Positions 16,984 to 28,385 of a stretch of DNA of 64,000 nucleotides are shown in pieces (position 1 is the first letter of the stretch; each line of letters begins with the position of its first letter). Below the pieces are notes generated by a model that did no database searches, was not told the DNA's origin, and saw only the letters and a program-made list of their open reading frames with translations. The translations under genes were made by a program, and so were the position numbers. Source of the DNA: Massilia oculi (GTDB lineage Bacteria; Pseudomonadota; Gammaproteobacteria; Burkholderiales; Burkholderiaceae_D); assembly GCF_003143515.1 (NCBI RefSeq), contig NZ_CP029343.1, positions 1,798,001 to 1,862,000 of the forward strand. Direction: 5' to 3'.

Positions 16984-17928
16984 ATGAATAAGCAAACCCT
17001 GATCGATAAGCTGATGAAGACCGGCGCGCATGCCGTGCCCGGCCGCGCCGACGTGATCGCGCTCACCCCGCTCACCCGCGACGATGCGCGCGCCAGCATG
17101 AACCGCTTCCTGACCGCGCTGCACGAGGCCGACATCTGCCGCCACGACCGCGCCAACCTGGCCGACCGCGGCGAGCGCAGCGTGGTGTACCTGGCCGATG
17201 GCGCGCGCGCCGTGGTCTACCACGCATCCAGCGCGCTGCGCTACGTGTCCGGCCTGGCGCCGTTCCAGGCGCCCTGGCAGCGGCCGGAAGAAACGCCGGC
17301 GCTGGTGCGCCAGCTGGAACAGGCCGCGCAGCGCATCGACATCGGCGCCTGGGTCGGCGAGCGCGGCAGCCTCGCCTTCGAGCGCCTGTGGCAGACCAAG
17401 GCGCGCGGCAGCGACCGCGACCAGAAGCTCTCGGACACGCTGCTGGTGCGCGCCACCGGCGCCTGGCGCCATGCGGTGGGAGAAATCCCGGTGCTGGGGG
17501 CCGCCTCGGTGGCGCTGCGCCTGGCCGGCGACGGCACGGTCGACGCGCTCGCGCTGAACATCCGGCACAGCGATGCCGAGGTGCTCGACAGCGCGCCCGT
17601 CCTCGAGGCCGAACTGGCGGCGCGCCAGCTGGCCGAGCGCCTGGCCAGCGTGCTGGGCAAGTCCAAGGACCGGCCGCCGGGCGACGTCGTGCAGTCGGCC
17701 ACGATGCGCTTCGGCTATCTCGACCTGGGCAAGCGCAAGGCCCAGCGCGTGCTGGCCCCGGCCTACGTGGCGCAGGTCGTGCTGCAGCACCGGCTCGAGC
17801 GCCAGGCCTATGTGCTGGCGGTGTCGGCCACCGAGCGGCCATACATCGAGCTGCCGCTATTCGGCAACGAGGCGCCGGTGGTGCGCTCGCGTGGCCTGCA
17901 TCCGGAGTGCCGCGACGGAGCGTCGTGA
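16984..17928 (+). CDS. Unknown protein paired with the caspase-like gene
   Basis: A 314-residue soluble protein rich in Ala, Arg and Leu, with no signal peptide, no membrane segment and no family I recognise. It is predicted mostly helical in its C-terminal half (repeated LEAELAARQLAERLASVL-type stretches), with a central segment ERSVVYLADGARAVVYHASS that looks like paired strands. The start lies 3 bases after the stop of the preceding gene, so the products are probably made together. It may be a partner, regulator or substrate of the putative peptidase. It ends 5 bases before the convergent nasA stop. Confidence 0.7.
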   Translation: MNKQTLIDKLMKTGAHAVPGRADVIALTPLTRDDARASMNRFLTALHEADICRHDRANLADRGERSVVYLADGARAVVYHASSALRYVSGLAPFQAPWQRPEETPALVRQLEQAAQRIDIGAWVGERGSLAFERLWQTKARGSDRDQKLSDTLLVRATGAWRHAVGEIPVLGAASVALRLAGDGTVDALALNIRHSDAEVLDSAPVLEAELAARQLAERLASVLGKSKDRPPGDVVQSATMRFGYLDLGKRKAQRVLAPAYVAQVVLQHRLERQAYVLAVSATERPYIELPLFGNEAPVVRSRGLHPECRDGAS

Positions 17929-17933
17929 TCCCG

Positions 17934-20624
17934 TCATGCCACGGCTGAGCGCACCTCCTGCAACAGCGACCTGATCTCGGGCAGGCACGATCCGCAATTA
18001 CCGCCGGCCCGCAGGCAGGCGGTCACCTCGGCCGATGTCTTCAGGTCCTGCTTCGCGATGGCCGCGCAGATCGTGTTGCGGCCGACGCCGAAGCAGGAGC
18101 AGACGGTCGGCCCGGGGTCCGGCCCCGGCGTCGGCGCGCGGCCGGCCAGCAAGGTCGCGCGTTCGCGTGCGCTCAGCCCGGTTTGCGCGAACAGTTCACC
18201 GAGCCAGGCGCGCGCCGGCAGGTCGGGCCGGCGCGACACGAACAGGCAGGCTTCCAGGCGGCCATCGACCACGAGCGCCGCCCGCAGCATGCCTTCCGAC
18301 TTGTCTTCGTATTCGATCCAGTCCGCGTCTTCATCCGCACCGAGCAGCGCGCGCGCCATCGCGGGCGACACCGGCTCGCGGCCGCCCAGCTCATAGCGCA
18401 GGAAGCCGCTGCCGCGCACGCGCGTCCAGTGCGCCACCCGCTCCAGGTTCAGTTCCATGCGGCTCAGGATGAAGCCATACCAGGCCACGCCGAACGGCTC
18501 CACCCGCACCGGCGTGTGCTTGAACTCGGGTTCGCCCGACACCGGATCGACTTCGGGATTGACCAGCGCGCCGACGCGCGCGTCGGACGCGGTTTGCCCA
18601 TTCCAGTGGATCGGCACGAACACCGCGCCGCGCGCGATGCCGCCGCCATGCGCCACGCGCGCCACCATCGCGCCCCACCGCGAGCTGACGCGGGCGAGTT
18701 CTCCTTCTCGCACGCCGGCCAGCAGCGCGTCGTGCGGATGCAGGTCGACGAACGGTTCCGCCGCATGGCCGGCCAGGCGCGGCGACTTGCCGGTGCGGGT
18801 CATCGTGTGCCATTGGTCGCGCAGACGGCCGGTGTTGAGCGCCAGCGGGAACTCGCCGCCCGGCGCATGCACAGGCGCGCGCGGCGTGGTCGCGACGAAA
18901 CGCGCCTTGCCGTCGGGGTGAGAGAAACGGCCGTCGCCGAACAGCCGTGCTGTGCCCTCGGCCGAGGCGTTCAGCGGCCATTGCACCGGCTGCAGCGCAT
19001 CGTAGGCCGCGAGGTCCATGCCGACCAGCGGATCGAGGCGGAAGGCGCGGCGATGGCCTTCGTCATCGTTCTTCCAGGTCGACAGCCGTGCGTGCTCGTC
19101 GAAGATCGCGTGCGCGCCGTCGTAGTCGAAGCCGGCAAAGCCCATGCGTTTGGCCACCTCGCACAGCGCCTGCCAGTCGGCGCGCGCCTCGCCCGGGGCC
19201 GGCAGGAAGGCGCGCTGGCGCGAGATGCAGCGCTCGGAATTGGTCACCGTGCCATCCTTCTCGCCCCAGGCCAGCGCCGGCAGCAGCACGTGCGCATATT
19301 GTCCGACGTCGGTGTTGGCCACCACGTCCGACACCACCACCAGTTCGCAGGCAGCCAGCGCGCGCCTCACCTGGTCGGCATCCGGCATGCTGACCACCGG
19401 ATTGGTGGCCATGATCCATACCGCCTTGACCTTGCCCGCCTCCACCGCGCGGAACAGGTCGACCGCCTTCAGGCCCGGCTTGTCGGCGATGCGCGGTGCG
19501 TCCCAGAAGCCGCGCACCGCCTCGCGATGGCCGGCATTGTCCAGGTCGAGATGGGCGGCGAGCATGTTCGCCAGGCCGCCCACTTCGCGTCCGCCCATTG
19601 CGTTCGGCTGCCCGGTCAGCGAGAACGGGCCCATGCCGGGACGGCCGATGCGGCCGGTGAGCAGGTGGCAGTTGATGATGCTGTTGACTTTATCGGTGCC
19701 GCTCGAGGACTGGTTCACGCCCATCGAGAACGCCGTCACCACTTTTTCGGTGCGGGCGAACAGTTCATAGAAAGCGCGCAGCTGGGCCGGATCGACGCCG
19801 CAGTCGCGCGCCACGTCATCCACCTCGTCATCCACCGTGGCGACTTCCAGCGCCGCCTCCAGCCCATGGGTGTGCGCCGCAACGAAGTCATGGTCGACCG
19901 CGCCCTCTCGCGCCAGATAGGCCAGCAGGCCGTTGAACAGCCGCACGTCGCTGCCCGGCTTGAGCGGCAGGTGCAGGTCGGCCAGTTCGCAGGTGGCCGT
20001 GCGGCGCGGGTCGAGCACGACGATCTGCAATGCGGGACGCGCTTCCTTCGCCTTGACGATGCGCTGGAACAGCGTCGGATGGCACCAGGCGGCGTTCGAG
20101 CCGACCAGCACGATCGCGTCGGCCAGCTCGACATCCTCGTAGCAGCCCGGCACCACGTCTTCACCGAAGGCGCGCTTGTGGCCGGCCACCGCGGACGACA
20201 TGCACAGGCGCGAGTTGGTGTCGATATTGGCGCTGCCGACGTAGCCCTTCATGAACTTGTTGGCGACGTAGTAATCCTCGGTGAGGATCTGGCCCGAGAC
20301 GTACAGCGCCACCGCATCCGGCCCGTGCTCGGCGACGATGCGCCTGAAGCCGTCGGCGACGGTGTCCAGCGCCTCGTCCCAGCTCGCGCGCGCCATCGCG
20401 CCGTCGCGCCTGATGGCTGGCGTCAGCAGGCGGCCATCGAGGCCCAGCGTCTCGCCCAGGGCCGAGCCCTTGACGCACAGGCGGCCGCGGCTGGCCACAT
20501 GATCGGCGTCGCCCTCGATCAGCGCGCCACCATCGCCCAGCGGCGTGGCTTTCACGCCGCAGCCGACGCCGCAATAAGGACAGGTGGTGCGGACTTCTTG
20601 CAGCGGGATCGGCATGTGCGACAT
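17934..20624 (-). CDS. nasA: Assimilatory nitrate reductase, catalytic subunit
   Basis: Cytoplasmic Mo-bis-MGD enzyme reducing nitrate to nitrite. The 896-residue product has an N-terminal [4Fe-4S] motif CPYCGVGCGV with a distal GRLCVKG, molybdopterin domains with NTNSRLCMSS-like DTNSRLCMSSAV near residue 138 (a Cys suited to bind Mo), SGTDKVNSIINCHLLTGRIGRPGMG, and a C-terminal BFD-like [2Fe-2S] domain CSCFGVG...CGSC, as in Klebsiella NasA. ATG at 20624 is preferred over the longer frame from 20657 because the family N-terminus begins there and it clears the upstream stop. Last gene of the nas operon. Confidence 0.95.
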   Translation of the reverse strand: MSHMPIPLQEVRTTCPYCGVGCGVKATPLGDGGALIEGDADHVASRGRLCVKGSALGETLGLDGRLLTPAIRRDGAMARASWDEALDTVADGFRRIVAEHGPDAVALYVSGQILTEDYYVANKFMKGYVGSANIDTNSRLCMSSAVAGHKRAFGEDVVPGCYEDVELADAIVLVGSNAAWCHPTLFQRIVKAKEARPALQIVVLDPRRTATCELADLHLPLKPGSDVRLFNGLLAYLAREGAVDHDFVAAHTHGLEAALEVATVDDEVDDVARDCGVDPAQLRAFYELFARTEKVVTAFSMGVNQSSSGTDKVNSIINCHLLTGRIGRPGMGPFSLTGQPNAMGGREVGGLANMLAAHLDLDNAGHREAVRGFWDAPRIADKPGLKAVDLFRAVEAGKVKAVWIMATNPVVSMPDADQVRRALAACELVVVSDVVANTDVGQYAHVLLPALAWGEKDGTVTNSERCISRQRAFLPAPGEARADWQALCEVAKRMGFAGFDYDGAHAIFDEHARLSTWKNDDEGHRRAFRLDPLVGMDLAAYDALQPVQWPLNASAEGTARLFGDGRFSHPDGKARFVATTPRAPVHAPGGEFPLALNTGRLRDQWHTMTRTGKSPRLAGHAAEPFVDLHPHDALLAGVREGELARVSSRWGAMVARVAHGGGIARGAVFVPIHWNGQTASDARVGALVNPEVDPVSGEPEFKHTPVRVEPFGVAWYGFILSRMELNLERVAHWTRVRGSGFLRYELGGREPVSPAMARALLGADEDADWIEYEDKSEGMLRAALVVDGRLEACLFVSRRPDLPARAWLGELFAQTGLSARERATLLAGRAPTPGPDPGPTVCSCFGVGRNTICAAIAKQDLKTSAEVTACLRAGGNCGSCLPEIRSLLQEVRSAVA

Positions 20625-20637
20625 AAGTGACTCTCTT

Positions 20638-21855
20638 CTACGCGGCCTGCGCTTCACACATTGCAGGCCCGAACAACAATCGATCGCGCAGCGCCGACAC
20701 GTCGGCCCCGCGCTGGATCAGGTCGAAATACCAGGGACCGTCGAGCACGTCGCCATACAGTACGGCGCCCGTGATGCGGTTCCCCTCGAGCACCAGGCGT
20801 TTATAGATGCCGGCGCGGCGGTCGCGCAGCACCAGATCTTGCGTGCCCGGTCCGCCGACGATGTCGCCGGCAGAGTACAAATCGATGCCGGTGACTTTCA
20901 GCTTGGTGGCGGTGGCCTGCTGCACGTAGCGGCGATGACCCAGGCCGGCCAGGTGGGCGGCGCACACGCGCGCCTGGTCCCAGATCGGCGCCACCAGGCC
21001 GAAGGTCGCCTTGCGGTGCTGGACGCATTCGCCCACCGCGTACACGCGCGGATCGTAGCTCTGCAAGGTGTCGTCGACCACGATGGCGCGCTCGACGTGC
21101 AGGCCCGCGGCGCGCGCCAGCGCCACATTCGGACGCACGCCGGCCGCCATCACCACCAGGTCGGCCGGCGCCTCTGTGCCATCCTTGAAGCGCACGCCCT
21201 CCACTCTGCCATTGCCGAGAATGGCCTCGGTCTCGGCACCGAGCAGGATGCGCAGGCCGCGGCCCTCCAGCGCGATCTTGAGCAGCAACGAGGCGTCGAC
21301 GTCGAGCTGCTGGTTCAACAGGCTATGGGTGAGATGGACCACGGTGACGTCCATGCCGCGGCGCAGCAGGCCGTTGGCCGCTTCCAGTCCCAGCAGGCCG
21401 CCGCCGATCACGACCGCGTGCTTGCCGTCGCGCGCCGCCTGCAGCATGGTGTCGACGTCGTCCAGGTCGCGAAAGCCCACCACGCCTGGCAGCTCGGCGC
21501 CCGGCACCGGCACGATGAACGGTTGCGAGCCGGTCGCCAGCAGCAGGCGGTCGTAGGCAACCTCCCTGCCCGACTGCGCGCGCACGATGCGCCGCTTGCG
21601 GTCGATCGCCACAACGGGGTCGCCCGCATGCAGGGTGATGCCGTGCTCCTCGTACCAGCTGCGCGGATGCAGCACGATCTCGTCCGCCGTCTTCTCGCCC
21701 GCCAGGACCGGCGACAGCATGATGCGGTTGTAGTTGACGCGCGGCTCGGCGCCGAACACGGTGATGTCGTACAGCTCGGGTGCCAGCGCCAGCAGCTCCT
21801 CGACGGTGCGCATGCCGGCCATGCCGTTGCCGACCACGACAAGAGAAGACCTCAT
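20638..21855 (-). CDS. NirB-like FAD/NAD(P) oxidoreductase of the nitrate reductase
   Basis: A 405-residue flavoprotein homologous to the N-terminal electron-input part of NirB. It has an FAD motif VVVGNGMAGM at the start, an NAD motif VVIGGGLLGLEAANGL near residue 147 and the YAVGECVQHR flavin motif near 275. It most likely delivers NADH electrons to NasA, the role of Klebsiella NasC or the Bacillus NasB type, although here it lacks an Fe-S domain. The start at 21855 overlaps the nirD stop by ATGA. Confidence 0.85.
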   Translation of the reverse strand: MRSSLVVVGNGMAGMRTVEELLALAPELYDITVFGAEPRVNYNRIMLSPVLAGEKTADEIVLHPRSWYEEHGITLHAGDPVVAIDRKRRIVRAQSGREVAYDRLLLATGSQPFIVPVPGAELPGVVGFRDLDDVDTMLQAARDGKHAVVIGGGLLGLEAANGLLRRGMDVTVVHLTHSLLNQQLDVDASLLLKIALEGRGLRILLGAETEAILGNGRVEGVRFKDGTEAPADLVVMAAGVRPNVALARAAGLHVERAIVVDDTLQSYDPRVYAVGECVQHRKATFGLVAPIWDQARVCAAHLAGLGHRRYVQQATATKLKVTGIDLYSAGDIVGGPGTQDLVLRDRRAGIYKRLVLEGNRITGAVLYGDVLDGPWYFDLIQRGADVSALRDRLLFGPAMCEAQAA

Positions 21856-22199
21856 GCGGCGACCCACACCTGTCCGCCGTCGATCCGCGCCGGATAGCTG
21901 GCGACCGATTGCGCCGGCGCCTCCAGGCACTCGCCGCTCCGCAGGTCGAAATGCTGCTTGTAGATCGGCGAAGCGACCACGATGCGCTCGCCGATGCTGC
22001 CCACCAGCCCACGCGACAGCACGGCGGCCTGCGAGTTCGGATCGTAGTTATCGATGGCGAACACCCTCGGCGCATCGCCGCCGACGCGGAATACCGCCAC
22101 CTGGCGGCCGTTCAGCAAGGCGCACACGCCGGTATCGGGCACGATCTCGTCCAGGTTGCAGACGGCGGTCCAGTGTTCGAGTTGAAGATCACGGTGCAT
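21852..22199 (-). CDS. nirD: Nitrite reductase small subunit
   Basis: A 115-residue Rieske-fold protein partnering NirB in NADH-dependent nitrite reduction to ammonium. WTAVCNLDEIVPDTGVCALLNG and SPIYKQHFDLRSGECLE follow the NirD pattern, in which the Rieske cluster ligands are not conserved, as is normal. TAAAGGAGAGC precedes the ATG at 22199. It lies 11 bases after nirB and overlaps the next gene by 4 bases. Confidence 0.94.
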   Translation of the reverse strand: MHRDLQLEHWTAVCNLDEIVPDTGVCALLNGRQVAVFRVGGDAPRVFAIDNYDPNSQAAVLSRGLVGSIGERIVVASPIYKQHFDLRSGECLEAPAQSVASYPARIDGGQVWVAA

Positions 22200-22210: not shown

Positions 22211-24736
22211 TTATGCGGCGGTGGCGATGGGGATGACGCGGCGGCGTTCGTCGAAGGTGGCCGGACGGACCTGGCCGCGCTCTGGCACGAACACGACGTT
22301 CTCGTCGACCTGCGTGCTGTTGACGAAGTGGCGGAAGCGGCGGCGCACGGCCGGATCGGTCACGGCTTCCTTCCATTCGCAGGCATAGGTGTCGACCACG
22401 TGCTGCATCTGCGCTTCCAGTTCCTGTGCGATGCCGAGGCTGTCGTCGACCACCACCGCCTTCAGGTAATCGAGGCCGCCTTCCAGGTTCTCGCGCCAGG
22501 TGCTGGTGCGCTGCAGGCGCTCGGCGGTGCGCACGTAGAACATCAGGAAACGGTCGGTCAGGCGCACCACCTCTTCTTCGGACAGGTTCGAGGCGATCAG
22601 CTCTGCGTGGCGCGGCTTCATGCCGCCATTACCGCACACATACAGGTTCCAGCCCTTGTCGGTGGCGATCAGGCCGACGTCCTTGCCCTGGGCCTCGGCG
22701 CATTCGCGGGTGCAGCCCGAGACGCCGAACTTGATCTTGTGCGGCGCGCGCAAGCCTTTATAGCGGTTCTCCAGCGCGATGGCGAAGCCGACGCTGTCGC
22801 CGACGCCGTAGCGGCACCAGGTCGAGCCGACGCAGGATTTCACCGTGCGCAGCGACTTGCCGTAGGCGTGGCCCGACTCGAAGCCGGCCGCGATCAGCTC
22901 TTCCCAGATCGCGGGCAGCTGGTCGACGCGGGCGCCGAACAGGTCGACCCGCTGGCCGCCGGTGATCTTGGTGTACAGGCCATACTTCTTGGCCACCATC
23001 CCCACCGCGATCAGGCCATCGGCCGTGACTTCGCCGCCCGGCATGCGCGGCACGACGGAATACGTCCCGTCCTTCTGGATGTTGCCGAGGAAGTAGTCGT
23101 TCGAATCCTGCAGGCTGGCGTGCTTCGGGGTCAAGACGAAATCGTTCCACACCGAGGCCAGGATATTCGCGGCGGTCGGCTTGCAGACGTCGCAACCGAG
23201 GCCCTTGCCGTGGCGCGCCAGCAGCTCGCCGAAGTCCTTGATGCCTTCCACGCGCACCAGGTGGTACAGCTCCTGGCGCGAGTACGGGAAGTGTTCGCAC
23301 AGGTGGTTGTTGACGGCCACGCCCAGTTTCTTCAGCTCGGCGTTGAGCACCTGCGTCACCAATGGCACGCAGCCGCCGCAGGCGGTGCCGGCCGAGGTGC
23401 AGCTCTTGAGGGCGCCGATGGTGGTGGCGCCGCCGGCCACCGCCTCGCACAGGGCGCCCTTGCTGACGTCGTTGCACGAGCAGACCTGGGCCGTGGCCGG
23501 CAGCTTGTCGACGCCGATCGCCGGACGCGCCCCGCCGCTCTCCGGCAGGATCAGGTATTCCGGCGCCTCCGGCAGTTCGATCCTGTTCAGCATCGTCTGC
23601 AGCAGCGCGCCATAGGCTGACGCCTCGCCCACCAGCACCCCGCCCAGCAGGTATTTGCCGCAGCTCGACACGACGATCTTGCGGTAAGTCTGGCGCCGTT
23701 CATCGAGGAATTGATAGCTGCGGCTGCCCGGCGTGGCGCCGTGGGCGTCGCCGATGCTGGCCACGTCCACGCCCATCAGTTTCAGCTTGGTGCTCATGTC
23801 GGCGCCGACGAAACCGCATTCCGTTCCCAGCAGATGCCGCGCCGCGGTGCGCGCCATGTCGTAGCCCGGCGCGACCAGGCCGAACAGCTGGCCACGCCAA
23901 CATGCGCATTCGCCGATGGCGTAGACGTGCGGGTCCGAGGTCTGGCAGCGGTCGTCGATGACGATGCCGCCGCGCGGGCCGATCCCGAGCCCGGACGCGC
24001 GCGCCAGCTCGTCGCGCGGGCGGATGCCGGCCGAGAACACGATCATGTCGGTGTCCAGGTGCGTACCGTCCGCGAACTGCATGCGGTGGTTGGTGTCGTC
24101 GCCATCGACGATGGCCAGCGTGTTCTTGCCCGTGTGGACGCCGACGCCCAGCTCCTCGATGCGGGTGCGCAGCACGCGCGCGCCGGGATCGTCGACCTGC
24201 ACCGCCATCAGGCGCGGCGCGAATTCGACCACGTGGGCGTTCAGGCCCAGGTCGCGCAGCGCCTTGGCGCATTCGAGGCCCAGCAGGCCGCCGCCGATCA
24301 CGACCCCGGACTTGGAACGCGTTCCCGCCTCTTGCATTGCTTCCAGGTCTTCGATGGTGCGATAGACGAAGCAGTCCTTGCGGTCGGCGCCGGGCACCGG
24401 CGGCACGAAGGGATAGGAACCGGTCGCCAGCACCAGGCGATCATAGGCGACGGAGGTACCGTCGGCCAGCGTCACCTTCTGCGCCGCCCGGTCGATCCCG
24501 ACTACTTTCGCATTCAGGCGCAGCACCATGTCTTCACGCTCGAAGAAGCCCGGCGCGACCAGCGACAGGTCGTCCGCACGCTTCCCGGCGAAGAATTCGG
24601 ACAGGTGCACGCGGTCGTAAGCCGGCCGCGGTTCTTCGCCCAGCACCGTGATGCGCAAGTCTTGCCGCCCGCTGGCGGCCAGGGTTTCGAGGAATTTGTG
24701 GCCCACCATGCCGTGGCCGATGACGACGATATGCAT
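22211..24736 (-). CDS. nirB: NADH-dependent nitrite reductase large subunit
   Basis: Cytoplasmic siroheme enzyme of 841 residues reducing nitrite to ammonium. Order: FAD/NAD domains (HIVVIGHGMVGHKFLE at residue 2, VVIGGGLLGLECAKAL near 150), a BFD-like [2Fe-2S] domain (CSCNDVSKG and TACGGC, residues 420-465), then the ferredoxin-like and siroheme/[4Fe-4S] domains with CVGSTWCRYG and SGCTRECAEAQGKDVG (near 640-690). Length is normal. The ATG at 24736 is preceded by AGGGAGCAGCAA and lies 14 bases after narK. The longer open frame back to 25072 is inside narK. Confidence 0.97.
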   Translation of the reverse strand: MHIVVIGHGMVGHKFLETLAASGRQDLRITVLGEEPRPAYDRVHLSEFFAGKRADDLSLVAPGFFEREDMVLRLNAKVVGIDRAAQKVTLADGTSVAYDRLVLATGSYPFVPPVPGADRKDCFVYRTIEDLEAMQEAGTRSKSGVVIGGGLLGLECAKALRDLGLNAHVVEFAPRLMAVQVDDPGARVLRTRIEELGVGVHTGKNTLAIVDGDDTNHRMQFADGTHLDTDMIVFSAGIRPRDELARASGLGIGPRGGIVIDDRCQTSDPHVYAIGECACWRGQLFGLVAPGYDMARTAARHLLGTECGFVGADMSTKLKLMGVDVASIGDAHGATPGSRSYQFLDERRQTYRKIVVSSCGKYLLGGVLVGEASAYGALLQTMLNRIELPEAPEYLILPESGGARPAIGVDKLPATAQVCSCNDVSKGALCEAVAGGATTIGALKSCTSAGTACGGCVPLVTQVLNAELKKLGVAVNNHLCEHFPYSRQELYHLVRVEGIKDFGELLARHGKGLGCDVCKPTAANILASVWNDFVLTPKHASLQDSNDYFLGNIQKDGTYSVVPRMPGGEVTADGLIAVGMVAKKYGLYTKITGGQRVDLFGARVDQLPAIWEELIAAGFESGHAYGKSLRTVKSCVGSTWCRYGVGDSVGFAIALENRYKGLRAPHKIKFGVSGCTRECAEAQGKDVGLIATDKGWNLYVCGNGGMKPRHAELIASNLSEEEVVRLTDRFLMFYVRTAERLQRTSTWRENLEGGLDYLKAVVVDDSLGIAQELEAQMQHVVDTYACEWKEAVTDPAVRRRFRHFVNSTQVDENVVFVPERGQVRPATFDERRRVIPIATAA

Positions 24737-24750
24737 TTGCTGCTCCCTGA

Positions 24751-26049
24751 TCAAGCTGCTGCGGCTGCCGGCGCCGTGTCGGCGCCCGTCGCGGTGAATC
24801 GGGCTGCGATGGCGCAGACGCTGGCGACCAGCACCAGGCCGCCGAGGATGGTGAGCGTCTGCTTGATGTCGCCCGTACCCTTCATCAGGAAGCCGGCCGC
24901 CACCGCGCCGACGTTGCCGCCGGCGCCGACGATGCCGGCCACGCCGCCCAGCGCCTTCGGCGCGATGAACGGCACCAGCGCATAGGTGGCGCCGCAGGCC
25001 ATGTGGGTGAACAGGCCGAACACCAGCATCGCGACCACGGCGAACACGACGCCCTCGGCCTGGGCGAACCACAGCAAGCCGAGTCCTTCGCCGATCATCA
25101 GCACGAACAGCACGGTCACGCGGCGGTTCAGGTCACCCGACAGCGCCGCCTTGTCCGACAGCCAGCCGCCCAGCGCGCGGGCGAACAGCGCCAGCAGGCC
25201 GAAGCTGCCCGCCGCCATGCCGGCCTGGGCCAGCGACAGGTCGAAGTGCTCGACGTAATACACGGCGGCGATGTTATGGATGAAGATCTCGATGCCGAAA
25301 CAGGCGCCATAGGTGACGAACAGCAGCCAGGCGCGGTGGTTGCGGCAACCGGCGACGAAGCTCGCCCATCCGCCCTTGCCGCCGGCATCAGGCATGCGGC
25401 CGGTCTTGCGCAGGTCGTCGTAATTGCCGGCCGGGCAGTCCTGCGTATAGCGCCAGTAGAAGAAGGCCATCACGATCATCATCACGCCCGGCACCACCAG
25501 CGCCAGGCGCCAGCTCAGCGACTGGCTCACGCCCAGCATCACGATGGCGGTGAGCATCAGCGGCATCACCGCCTGCGCCGCGCCGCCGCCGGCATTGCCC
25601 CAGCCCGCCGCCGCCGCGTTGGCGGTGCCGACCACCTTCGGTCCGAACATGACGGAGGTGTGGTACTGGGTGATGACGAAGCTGGCGCCGACCGCGCCGA
25701 TGCCCAGGCGCGCCAGCAGGAAGGCCTCGTAGCTCTGCGCCAGCGCCACGCCCAGCACGGGAATCGCGCCCAGCAGGAGCAAGCCCGTGTACGTCTTGCG
25801 CGGGCCGTAGCGGTCGCACAGCGGACCGACCAGCAGACGCACGAAGATGGTGATCGCAACCGCCGCAATATTGATGTTGGCGATCTGCTCCATCGAGAGT
25901 CCGAATTCGCCCTTGATGACCGGCATCAGCGGCGCGCAGGCGAACCAGGCGAAGAAGCAGACGAAGAAGGCGACCCAGGTGAGGTGGAAGGCGCGCATCG
26001 GCGCCCCCTGGAAGGAAAAGAGCTTGATGCTGTCCGCTTTGCTGGCCAT
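24751..26049 (-). CDS. narK: Nitrate/nitrite transporter, NarK/NasA type MFS
   Basis: Inner-membrane nitrate uptake protein of 432 residues and 12 helices. The family signature is present twice in glycine-rich form: AAAAGWGNAGGGAAQAVMPL in helix 5 and GVAGIVGAGGNVGAVAAGFL in helix 11. Arg pairs in helices 2 and 8 (IFVRLLVGPLCDRYGPRK) suit nitrate binding. First gene behind the NasT-type attenuator leader and sigma-54 promoter, so uptake, nitrite reduction and nitrate reduction are induced together. AAAGGAAGAAC precedes the ATG. Confidence 0.95.
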   Translation of the reverse strand: MASKADSIKLFSFQGAPMRAFHLTWVAFFVCFFAWFACAPLMPVIKGEFGLSMEQIANINIAAVAITIFVRLLVGPLCDRYGPRKTYTGLLLLGAIPVLGVALAQSYEAFLLARLGIGAVGASFVITQYHTSVMFGPKVVGTANAAAAGWGNAGGGAAQAVMPLMLTAIVMLGVSQSLSWRLALVVPGVMMIVMAFFYWRYTQDCPAGNYDDLRKTGRMPDAGGKGGWASFVAGCRNHRAWLLFVTYGACFGIEIFIHNIAAVYYVEHFDLSLAQAGMAAGSFGLLALFARALGGWLSDKAALSGDLNRRVTVLFVLMIGEGLGLLWFAQAEGVVFAVVAMLVFGLFTHMACGATYALVPFIAPKALGGVAGIVGAGGNVGAVAAGFLMKGTGDIKQTLTILGGLVLVASVCAIAARFTATGADTAPAAAAA

Positions 26050-26061
26050 TGTTCTTCCTTT

Positions 26062-26113
26062 AAAAACGAAAAGGCGTCCGCGCTGGCTGCCATGGGCAGT
26101 AGCTGCGGACGCC
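26062..26113 (-). terminator. Leader attenuator terminator of the nas operon
   Basis: On the minus strand the arm at 26113-26105 (GGCGTCCGC) pairs with 26081-26073 (GCGGACGCC), with a nested CTGCC-CAT-GGCAG hairpin inside the loop, followed by TTTTCGTTTTT. It ends 12 bases before the narK ATG, so without antitermination transcription would stop before narK. The 5' arm overlaps the second hexaloop hairpin, so the two structures exclude each other. Confidence 0.85.
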
Positions 26114-26143
26114 GTTGTCCTGTTGCCGTCCCCGCGTTGGGCC
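26107..26143 (-). promoter_or_regulatory. Two-hexaloop ANTAR (NasT) recognition RNA
   Basis: In the narK leader, hairpin P1 (26143-26128) has CCC/GGG closing a six-base loop AACGCG, and hairpin P2 (26120-26107) has GGAC/GTCC closing AACGGC. Both loops have A at position 1 and G at position 4, the published requirements for ANTAR targets, and a 7-base linker joins them. P2 shares bases with the terminator. NasT, encoded upstream in the same cluster, is the expected ligand. Confidence 0.82.
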
Positions 26144-26196
26144 GGCGCTAAGTGAAAATCGTGAAGAGAATCGCCATTGATCCTGTCAGAGGTATG

Positions 26197-26212
26197 AGCA
26201 AGAGGCGTGCCA
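26197..26212 (-). promoter_or_regulatory. Sigma-54 promoter of narK-nirBD-nasA
   Basis: TGGCACG-N4-TTGCT on the minus strand matches the -24/-12 consensus exactly. Transcription would begin near 26187, giving a leader of about 137 bases that contains the ANTAR hairpins and the terminator. This implies nitrogen control through RpoN and NtrC. Confidence 0.85.
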
Positions 26213-26253
26213 CCGGTGCTTCAGGGAGCGGACGCTGATGAAATGCGTTCGGA

Positions 26254-26302
26254 TGCTGCATTGCGGTGCATCGCTCCCCACGATGATGCACCCGCATGCA
26301 CC
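26254..26302. promoter_or_regulatory. Possible NtrC enhancer sites
   Basis: Two TGCA-rich stretches, 26254-26270 (17 bases ending GGTGCA) and 26287-26302 (TGCACC repeated), lie about 70-115 bases upstream of the predicted start. They carry NtrC half-sites (TGCACC/GGTGCA), but neither is a full palindrome, so the assignment is tentative. Confidence 0.35.
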
Positions 26303-26306
26303 GCGT

Positions 26307-27473
26307 TCAAGATCCGGATGGTGCGCCGGCCCAGGCATGCGGATCGCTGCCGTCCCATACCCGGCCGTCGAGCAGGGTCGAGCTGCGCATCGGGGTAGCG
26401 GGCAGCATCGTGCCGGTGCGTTCGGCCGCCTCGCGGTACAGGTCGATGCGGTTGACCTGGGCCGCCAGCGCCAGATAAGGAGGGGCTTCGCGCAGCAGGC
26501 CCCAGCGCCGGTGCTGGGTCATGAACCACATGCCATCCGACAGCCAGGGGAAGTTGACCTCGCCGTCGGCATGGAAGCGCAGGCCGTTGTGGCCGCGCCA
26601 GGCGCCTTCCCGATGCTCGTCGATATGGCTGCCGGCCAGGCAGAACTGCAGCGTCTCGCGGCTGGCGTTGACGTAGGCGGGACTGGCCAGCACCTCGGCC
26701 GCGGCTTCGCGGTTGGTGCGCGAGGCATCGAGCCAGCGCGCCGCCTCCAGCAGCGCGGCGATCATGGCGCGGCAGGTATTCGGGTGGCTGGCCGCGAAGC
26801 CGGCGCGCGTGCCGAGCGCCTTGCCCGGATGGTTCGGCCATACCTGTTCGCTGGACGCGGCTTGCACCCCGGCGCCGTCGCGCTGCGCGCGCTGACCCCA
26901 CGGCTCGCCGGCGCAAAAGCCATCCATATGGCCGGCGGCCAGGCTGGCCGCCATCTGCCCTGGGGGCACCGTCACCGCCTGGCAATCCACCAGCGGGTCG
27001 ACGCCATGCGCGGCCAGCCAGTAATACAGGAACATCGCGTGGTTCCCGGTCGGGAAGGTATGGGCCAGGGTGAGCTTGCGCCCTTTCGCGTCGATCTCGC
27101 GCTTGAGCAGGCCCGGATCGAGGGCGGCGTTGGCGAGCGCGCGCGACAGCGTGATGTTCTGGCCGTTCTGGTGCAGGTTCATCAACACCGCCATATCGCA
27201 CTGCTGGGTGCCGATGCCGTTCTGGATGCCGTAGACCATCCCGTACAGCGCATGGGCCGCATCGAGCTGCTGGCCGATCAGGCGGTCGCGCATCGCGGTC
27301 CAGGACAGTTCGCGTGTGAGCGCGAAGCGCACCCCGTACCGTTCGTCGAAGCCGAGCACCGACGCCATCACCAGCGGCGCGCAATCGGCCAGCGGCATGA
27401 AGCCGATGCGGACGGTCTCGATCTCGGGCCGGTCGGTGCCGGCGATCCAGGCGCCTCTGCCTGCCAATGTCAT
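26307..27473 (-). CDS. nasS: NasS, cytoplasmic nitrate/nitrite sensor
   Basis: A 388-residue NrtA/CmpA-type ligand-binding protein without a signal peptide or lipobox, so it stays in the cytoplasm. In NasS-NasT systems NasS binds NasT and releases it when nitrate or nitrite binds. VRIGFMPLADCAPLVMA, GNHAMFLYYWLAAHG, GHMDGFCAGEPWG and FMTQHRRWG follow the NrtA family, including residues near the nitrate pocket. It sits between nasT and the narK leader in the minus direction, 35 bases after nasT. AAGGAGACGT precedes the ATG. Confidence 0.92.
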   Translation of the reverse strand: MTLAGRGAWIAGTDRPEIETVRIGFMPLADCAPLVMASVLGFDERYGVRFALTRELSWTAMRDRLIGQQLDAAHALYGMVYGIQNGIGTQQCDMAVLMNLHQNGQNITLSRALANAALDPGLLKREIDAKGRKLTLAHTFPTGNHAMFLYYWLAAHGVDPLVDCQAVTVPPGQMAASLAAGHMDGFCAGEPWGQRAQRDGAGVQAASSEQVWPNHPGKALGTRAGFAASHPNTCRAMIAALLEAARWLDASRTNREAAAEVLASPAYVNASRETLQFCLAGSHIDEHREGAWRGHNGLRFHADGEVNFPWLSDGMWFMTQHRRWGLLREAPPYLALAAQVNRIDLYREAAERTGTMLPATPMRSSTLLDGRVWDGSDPHAWAGAPSGS

Positions 27474-27508
27474 ACGTCTCCTTGTCCTTGTCTGTAGTGA
27501 AGCGTGGC

Positions 27509-28153
27509 CTAGCCGAGCAGGTCTTCCACGTCGATCAGGCGCTGCGCGACTTCCGCCAGCTTCAGGTTCTTGTTCATCGCCAGGGTGCGCAGGCGCTGGT
27601 AGGCCTGCTCTTCGGTCAGGCTGTAGCGGTTCATGAGCAGGCCCTTGGCGCGGTCGACGGTCTTGCGCTCCGCCAGCTTCTGGCGCGTGTCGCTCAGCTC
27701 ATCGAGCAGCTTCTGCTCGCGCCGGAAGCGCGCCAGCGCCACATCCAGCACCGGCTTGACGCGCTCGGCCTGCAGGCCGGCCACGATATAGGCCGAGACG
27801 CCGGCGTCCATCGCCGCGTCCATGCTGGCCGGCGCATCGTCCTCGGTGAACAGGACGATCGGACGCCGCGCGTCGCGGGTGGCGATCACGATGTGCTCGA
27901 GCACGTCGCGTGCGTCGGACTCGCTGTCGGCGATGATCAGGTCGGGCTGCAGCTGGGCGATGCGCTCGGGCAGGAAGACGTCGGCCGGCAGCGATGCGAT
28001 CAGGTCGTAGCCCGATTCGAGCAGGCCGATGCGCAGCGCCGTGCTGCGCCGCGTCTGCGCGGCCTGGGCGGCGTCCGGATCGGTGCCGGGCGCTGTTGCG
28101 GAAAGCACGACGACGATCCGCAGATGTGGTGAAGCACTGTCTCGCGATTTCAT
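27509..28153 (-). CDS. nasT: NasT, ANTAR-domain RNA antiterminator
   Basis: A 214-residue response-regulator-like protein: a receiver domain (residues about 10-130) without a full phosphorylation pocket, as usual for NasT, though an Asp is kept in IIADSES. A coiled linker and a C-terminal ANTAR domain follow (RKTVDRAKGLLMNRYSLTEEQAYQRLRTLAMNKN). It should bind the two-hexaloop RNA in the narK leader and prevent termination when freed from NasS. The start at 28153 is chosen from family length; 28198 is possible. The ribosome binding site is weak in either case. Confidence 0.92.
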   Translation of the reverse strand: MKSRDSASPHLRIVVVLSATAPGTDPDAAQAAQTRRSTALRIGLLESGYDLIASLPADVFLPERIAQLQPDLIIADSESDARDVLEHIVIATRDARRPIVLFTEDDAPASMDAAMDAGVSAYIVAGLQAERVKPVLDVALARFRREQKLLDELSDTRQKLAERKTVDRAKGLLMNRYSLTEEQAYQRLRTLAMNKNLKLAEVAQRLIDVEDLLG

Positions 28154-28385
28154 ATGCTTACGATATGCAAGATTCGCACCAGGCGCGAGCATCGCCAATG
28201 GCCCATGCCCTTCTTATGCGGAACGCCTTGCCCGAGATATTCGCATATCGAATGTCTTGCATGAGAGCAACTTAATAATCATTCACAGAATGAATCGCGG
28301 GAATCACAAATCTAAAGTTTGTTTATGATGAGGACGCCCCTATACTGCAACGCAACATCGAAGTATTTATCTCAGGGGAACAATC

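Follow-up and report, generated by a model that had tools for sequence, protein, structure and literature searches.

A leader carrying three hairpins with six-base loops was identified in front of narK, the first gene of a narK-nirBD-nasA operon, in a 64 000-nucleotide stretch of the Massilia oculi contig NZ_CP029343.1 (hereafter the window; all coordinates are window positions, and the leader elements are read on the minus strand). All three loops have A at position 1 and G at position 4 (A1/G4 hexaloops), and the last of the hairpins, which were named A, B and C from the 5′ end, overlaps an intrinsic terminator. The reading that we favour, with a probability of about 0.72, is that the leader acts by nitrate-responsive antitermination on an operon for nitrate assimilation; hairpins A and B would most likely serve as successive landing sites for the ANTAR-domain protein NasT, and B would pass it to C.

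On this scheme, RNA polymerase with sigma-54 would start about 12 nt past the −12 element (predicted start region 26185..26189, placed by promoter geometry). Without nitrate, NasS would hold NasT, and the terminator would stop transcription before narK. With nitrate, NasT would be freed, would bind the A1/G4 hexaloops, presumably each of them, and would stabilize hairpin C, the 3′ part of which is the 5′ arm of the terminator, allowing read-through into narK-nirBD-nasA. Hairpin A would load NasT as the RNA emerges, and B would hand it on to C; that NasT binds hairpin A, how the events follow one another and what a third loop would add are our inferences. The available text of PMC3795266 reports for Paracoccus that nitrate frees NasT from NasS and that NasT binds the nas leader. 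In the accessible parts of PMC8934654 (2022), the EutV dimer is described as holding one hexaloop at a time, a hand-over from recruitment to antitermination is proposed, and the question is raised why ANTAR proteins need two loops when the dimer binds singly. A three-loop leader fits a relay from A to B to C, and the natural examples, which occur across many genomes of a single family and again in other genera, make the hand-over model testable by single-base changes.

Leader anatomy and folding

The promoter TGGCACG-N4-TTGCT (26197..26212; TGGCACG 26212-26206, TTGCT 26201-26197) was assigned by the sigma-54 consensus and, read directly, is exactly as proposed in a first-pass annotation of this DNA made from its letters. 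It was present in all 26 aligned leaders, the relatives among them having themselves been picked by the same motif. The annotation had described two ANTAR hexaloops; both exist, but a third was missed, namely hairpin A (26168..26183), GGATC-AATGGC-GATTC, which is the 5′-most and was recognized by leader scans, covariation, folding and RNAalifold. Hairpin B is real and has the A1/G4 loop attributed to it (AACGCG, 26138-26133), but it extends beyond the original 26143-26128 to 26125..26146, with stem arms 26146-26139 and 26132-26125 and one G.A mismatch. Hairpin C, the antiterminator (26107..26120; GGAC-AACGGC-GTCC), and the intrinsic terminator (26062..26113; arms 26113-26105 and 26081-26073, then the T-run TTTTCGTTTTT), which had been said to share bases, were borne out by direct reading and folding, and hairpin C also by RNAalifold. 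The bases common to both are loop positions 4-6 and the 3′ arm of C. Two hexaloops per leader are taken to mark the NasS/NasT system; with three, this leader was filed as a variant.

The full leader folded into hairpins plus terminator at −48.9 kcal/mol (z −3.25), the terminator displacing hairpin C, and the terminator folded alone gave a z of −6.0. When the leader was cut before the terminator 3′ arm, the three hexaloop hairpins formed, C included. The nested hairpin in the terminator loop, previously called unusual, was rejected as a special feature, since folding shows it to be the distal part of a single interrupted terminator stem; comparable, sequence-divergent distal stems were seen by eye in relatives. 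A short leader open reading frame at 26177-26148 (M-A-I-L-F-T-I-F-T-stop), the ATG of which is loop A itself, was also rejected: the ATG was found in 14 of 26 leaders, and the stop positions vary.

Conservation, covariation and loop sequences

Hairpin A was first spotted by scanning the leaders of NasS-bearing relatives and was present in all 25 relatives picked solely by NasS and the promoter motif; its five inner pairs were kept in every row of a 26-row alignment. A 47-row alignment comprised the window, 22 relatives selected by NasS and promoter motif only (three near-identical ones of the 25 being omitted) and 24 leaders found with a model, R1, that includes hairpin A. R1 matched 55 places in 54 genomes, from which 29 relatives were taken and 24 used; two repeats of other leaders, two near-copies and one leader with a damaged C stem (L182) were omitted. 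In 46 distinct Oxalobacteraceae sequences the pair cells of hairpin A were paired in 230 of 230 cases. Two-sided changes occurred in three of its five pairs, and none of 500 shuffles scored as high on any of five measures; 12 cells of the stem were G-U pairs. Compensatory changes, for which the first-pass annotation had recommended aligning related leaders, were likewise found in hairpin B, the stem of which had 24 two-sided cells (0/500 shuffles), with the number of changed pairs reached by 91/500 shuffles. RNAalifold, supplied with no structure, recovered all three hairpins from the 47 sequences.

A1 and G4, whose presence in related leaders the annotation had made a test of its reading, were kept in all three loops in 47/47 rows. 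Loop C was AACGGC in 46/47 and loop A was AANGGC in 42/47, whereas positions 4-6 of loop B were GGC in 5/47, the GC at positions 5-6 being missing in 42/47. Among 27 two-loop leaders, 21 had GGC at positions 4-6 of the first loop. The GGC of loop C is accounted for by the terminator pairing, and that of loop A is not explained in this way. These loop sequences suggest that hairpin A took over the role of strong first loop and that B relaxed.

An ordinary two-loop ANTAR switch consisting of B and C only, with A as a 5′-end stabilizer or pause hairpin to which NasT does not bind, is an unlikely account of these data. Its attractions are that B and C adjoin each other and the terminator, that many relatives have two loops only, and that the stem of A starts 14-18 nt past the −12 C across leaders; counted from the predicted start site, hairpin A would start only a few bases into the transcript, a fit place for a stabilizing hairpin. 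For a stabilizer the sequence of the loop should not matter, but A1/G4 is kept throughout in loop A and AANGGC nearly so, in contrast with the relaxed positions 5-6 of loop B, and the upstream hexaloop hairpins of other genera are enriched for A1/G4 (see below). The same deviation of loop B, together with a B-C linker of 1 nt in 16/47 rows, could instead mean that the switch works through A and C, B being a relaxing leftover or a spacer. We hold this to be less probable still, given that B retains A1 and G4 in every row and that its stem covaries. Finally, hairpin A might be a DNA operator, the inverted repeat GGATC-N6-GATCC just past the start, and not an RNA element. The repeat is near-perfect and highly conserved, and its spacing from the promoter is nearly constant. 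Against this, its six spacer bases show asymmetric conservation and match those of ANTAR loops, its G-U pairs suit RNA, and the extra hairpin of other genera combines different stem sequences with an A1/G4 loop, all of which makes an operator very improbable.

Several observations weigh against the favoured reading. The cut leader was no more stable than shuffles (z −0.70; 54/200 as good), and the stability of single hairpins was not clearly above that of shuffles (19/200 as good for A, 20/200 for B and 8/200 for C). The hairpins are thus not established by folding energy by itself, and the case rests on conservation and covariation; no covariation was seen in the terminator in the leader alignment. 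Over the 26 rows the covariation of hairpin A was weak, its paired percentage being reached by 48/500 shuffles, its number of pairs with two-sided changes by 42/500 and its two-sided cells by 180/500, because the hairpin barely varies. Each compensatory change in hairpin A was confined to one sequence, and the covariation support came with the rows found by R1, which itself contains this hairpin. In the omitted leader L182, outside the 47, the stem of hairpin C looks damaged by eye (GGAC/GTGT). The B-C linker was shorter than 5 nt in 34/47 rows and the A-B linker longer than 12 nt in 33/47, both outside the range of eut leaders, for which the available text of PMC3369931 gives linkers of 5-12 nt, with impairment at 3 or 14 nt. 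According to the accessible part of PMC6759348, loss of nasT in Bradyrhizobium raised rather than lowered narK, for which NasT hairpins are predicted.

Third loops in other genera and the Rfam family RF03032

A second model, R2, was derived from 29 leaders and covers hairpins B and C but not hairpin A. These were 29 of 36 candidates; L006 and L102 (near-copies; L110 was kept) and five leaders with long linkers, including L121, were omitted. The R2 alignment had two-sided changes in seven of 10 pairs (reached by 13/500 shuffles) and a covariation score of 0.573, compared with 0.176 in shuffles, none of which reached it. R2 had matches (E ≤ 0.001 per genome) in 69 of the 300 genomes from the order that were searched and in 46 of 369 from the class. 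Of the 60 loci listed from these matches, 53, from 45 genera, were searched for hairpins in the 90 nt preceding hairpin B; the window's own locus and six truncated loci were left out. This search, which is independent of R1, gave 42 hexaloop hairpins with stems of at least 5 bp, of which 17 had A1/G4, against 6.4 % in letter shuffles (p = 2.8e-10, uncorrected for relatedness). Fifteen of the 17 look real and represent 13 of the 45 genera, the window's own genus among them, and the other two (AGAGAA and ATAGGA) look like chance. The stems of the third loops vary between genera and the loop remains AANG. Stems of 4 bp add further third loops, by eye, in three loci of one genus (L189, L191 and L197) and in L201.

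In L121 (near 1550-1580), the middle hairpin has a hexaloop that starts with C and not A (CAAGGA, by eye), possibly a decayed third loop. Eleven genomes contained two or three R2-type leaders each, and NasT may control more than one operon in such genomes.

RF03032 ('narK RNA') was the only informative sub-threshold Rfam match of the leader, the others looking like chance. In the Rfam search at gathering thresholds, no match above threshold was found at the leader, and a tRNA was the sole match in the window; the leader scored 19.2 bits against RF03032 (cut-off 43.2, E 1.4 in 2.8 kb), which is below the gathering cut-off, and the match jumps 62 bases where the model expects 26. The 5′ consensus of the family, GGCaC..UUGCU, can be read as a sigma-54 promoter; the single hairpin that is modelled, GGcagCC-AACGGC-GGcugCC, has an A1/G4 hexaloop, and the 3′ end, CGAC-AAAGAC-GUCG, is a second, unmodelled hexaloop. 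The same anatomy of promoter and hexaloops before a nitrate gene was found in the window leader.

Matches to RF03032 (E ≤ 0.001) were present in 13 of 145 family genomes (none over the cut-off), in 34 of 300 order genomes (three over the cut-off) and in none of 14 control genomes. Of the 45 places, 42 were examined, and 40 of these had the second hexaloop motif followed by a T-run, which is all that was scored as a terminator; the C motif was absent at the place in two (L012, perhaps a chance coding match, and L107, which is truncated). In these counts L105 was assigned the wrong C, so that its third loop was counted as none, and 4-bp stems were missed. Upstream of the 40 loci, a loose sigma-54 pattern was present in 38 (3.5 % of shuffles) and the strict pattern GGCAY-N5-TTGC in 35 (0.15 % of shuffles). 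A1/G4 hexaloops with stems of at least 5 bp upstream of the last hairpin averaged 1.0 per leader in these 40, compared with 0.023 in dinucleotide shuffles. An ANTAR match to NasT was found in all 34 RF03032-matching order genomes, against 153 of 300 overall (p = 1.5e-11, uncorrected for relatedness); it lay within 10 kb of the RF03032 site in 30 of the 34, and less than 2.5 kb upstream on the same strand in 24. Among R2-matching genomes, 68 of 69 had such a match, the exception being a genome of 67 % completeness. The match may represent another ANTAR protein: in four genomes (G026, G233, G311 and G406) only the ANTAR part was matched, in frames of 426-493 aa that are NasR-type-like.

Judged from its consensus and its neighbourhood, RF03032 is a promoter plus ANTAR leader, which would give this orphan RNA a function; part of the model would then be promoter DNA, and the operons behind it are predicted to answer nitrate via NasT-like proteins. 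The family is catalogued as a separate cis-regulatory one, and it might bind a ligand independently and lie near nas genes by chance. Such a coincidence is scarcely credible for a consensus that spells out a sigma-54 promoter and two A1/G4 hexaloops, with the strict promoter pattern and the ANTAR match distributed as above.

Taking the two lines together, we consider it somewhat more probable than not that triple-hexaloop leaders arose repeatedly in Gammaproteobacteria (the GTDB class, which includes Burkholderiales), the extra 5′-end landing site and the relay from A to B to C loading NasT early or raising its effective concentration, and that RF03032 represents the sigma-54 promoter and NasT/NasR leader of nitrate genes. 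No paper on RF03032 or narK RNA, and none linking it to ANTAR leaders, was found in the literature covered, outside which the likely source paper of the motif falls, and neither narK RNA nor three loops are mentioned in the available portions of PMC7266159 and PMC8164766. Nothing on three-hexaloop leaders was found among titles and abstract openings, a scope that excludes most subscription papers; PMC8934654, in its accessible text, was the sole match joining hexaloop, ANTAR and nitrate.

Operon, regulators and related systems

The regulator genes lie upstream of the leader on the same strand, as had been proposed, and were identified by profile matches. The product of nasT (27509..28153) has a receiver-like and an ANTAR domain (PF03861, 76.3 bits, cut-off 27.3), and nasS (26307..27473) encodes an NrtA-like binding protein (NMT1_2, 277 bits; NrtA 2g29, E 1.5e-61) in which no signal peptide was seen by eye. 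With the ANTAR domain, the NrtA-like NasS and a leader conserved in 25/25 relatives picked by NasS and promoter motif, the earlier reading of the locus as NasS/NasT attenuation is well supported. The only solved relatives of NasT at E ≤ 0.001 were 4akk (NasR), 1qo0 (AmiR), 6wsh and 1s8n, the last two of which we take to be EutV and Rv1626, respectively. When a chain offset of 2 is assumed, the residues with which EutV holds G4 (R142, K149, E160 and Y164, numbered as in the available text of PMC8934654) are conserved in the aligned NasT, as is Met172; K147, R175 and R177 are changed to Arg, Asn and Lys, respectively.

The genome encodes RpoN and NtrC (680.9 bits, cut-off 558.6), and nasT has a sigma-54-like promoter of its own, TGGTGCGAATCTTGCA (28166..28181, minus strand; 10/12 matches). 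A site like it, scoring 9-11/12, was found in all 22 relatives scanned (22 of the 25), 689-785 nt before nasS. Sigma-54 control of the operon is thus supported, given the conserved promoter, the presence of RpoN and NtrC and the nasT promoter. Klebsiella nasF is also under Ntr/sigma-54 control. Of the double control suggested in the first-pass annotation, the sigma-54 part is borne out by the promoter and RpoN, and control by NtrC itself is likely: a candidate NtrC-like site, TGCACCGCAATGCAGCA (26254..26270, minus strand), matches the NtrC consensus at 10/12 positions, its right half being degenerate. The mean best score for this site, one half of which is degenerate, was 9.0 over 26 leaders compared with 7.7 in letter shuffles, and most of the 26 leaders have a counterpart at a similar place. 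A start from the nasT promoter would fall close to the nasT start codon, and the nasT transcript may be nearly leaderless.

The operon genes are all on the minus strand. NarK (24751..26049) is a NarK-family nitrate/nitrite transporter of the major facilitator superfamily (TIGR00886, 299.4 bits, slightly below the cut-off of 311.7). It is followed by nirB (22211..24739; TIGR02374, above cut-off, start placed from the hidden Markov model match), nirD (21852..22199; TIGR02378, above cut-off), a gene for an FAD/NAD(P) oxidoreductase resembling the NirB N terminus (20638..21855; profile matches) and a nasA-type molybdopterin oxidoreductase gene with a C-terminal BFD-like iron-sulfur domain (17934..20657; Pfam domains above cut-off); the starts of nirD and the oxidoreductase gene are predicted. 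Nitrate and formate reductase models match the nasA-type protein below their cut-offs. Convergent with nasA and adjoining it, a 314-aa protein is encoded at 16984-17928 (plus strand), for which neither Pfam nor NCBIfam gave a match at E ≤ 0.001.

By NasS, the nearest named relatives are Massilia arenae (96 %) and M. timonae (95 %). Among 80 listed loci with NasS homologues, the sigma-54 motif was present within 450 nt after the gene in 25 and absent in 55. Eight of the 55, and L094, run by eye into permease-like, cobA-like or other genes, and many motif-less homologues may be of the NrtA type. Two Massilia genomes (L017/L065 and L018/L094) each had two NasS/NrtA homologues, one with a triple leader; the second (L065, L094) was directly followed, by eye, by a transporter-permease-like gene. 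In leader-model searches of the M. oculi genome for other NasT targets, the window site was the sole significant match, and two weak matches (E 0.19 and 0.94) were dismissed by eye, having no promoter or terminator. The second ANTAR gene of the genome (C1:2076463) was rejected as a second NasT, since by eye it encodes a distinct response regulator and precedes a gene resembling a dehydrogenase.

The leader is a known kind of switch, NasS/NasT ANTAR antitermination, in a three-loop variant; the ANTAR leaders described in the available parts of the cited literature have two loops each. As in Paracoccus denitrificans and Bradyrhizobium, a nitrate-freed ANTAR protein NasT acts on leader hairpins (accessible text of PMC3795266, PMC5424462 and PMC6759348), and in Paracoccus nasTS likewise adjoin the operon. 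Two hairpins (HI and HII) are named there, whereas the window leader has three hexaloops directly preceded by a perfect sigma-54 promoter; the portion of PMC3795266 available also speaks of 'a series' of hairpins, undepicted, which leaves the Paracoccus number uncertain. The nasF leader of Klebsiella oxytoca likewise has A1/G4 hexaloops, in its hairpins P1 and P2, the second of which overlaps the terminator, but is served by NasR, a single-protein NIT-ANTAR sensor, and has two hairpins (PMC3369936 and PMC7496416, as far as available). The EutV leaders of Enterococcus faecalis resemble the window leader in their dual A1/G4 hexaloops, terminator overlap and hand-over model, and differ in phosphorylation control, two loops and a linker of 5-12 nt (PMC8934654 and PMC3369931, available sections). 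RF03032 has in common with the window leader a sigma-54 promoter, hexaloops 1 and 2, a downstream T-run and NasT-like genes nearby, and differs in that its model pairs hexaloop 1 only and includes the promoter.

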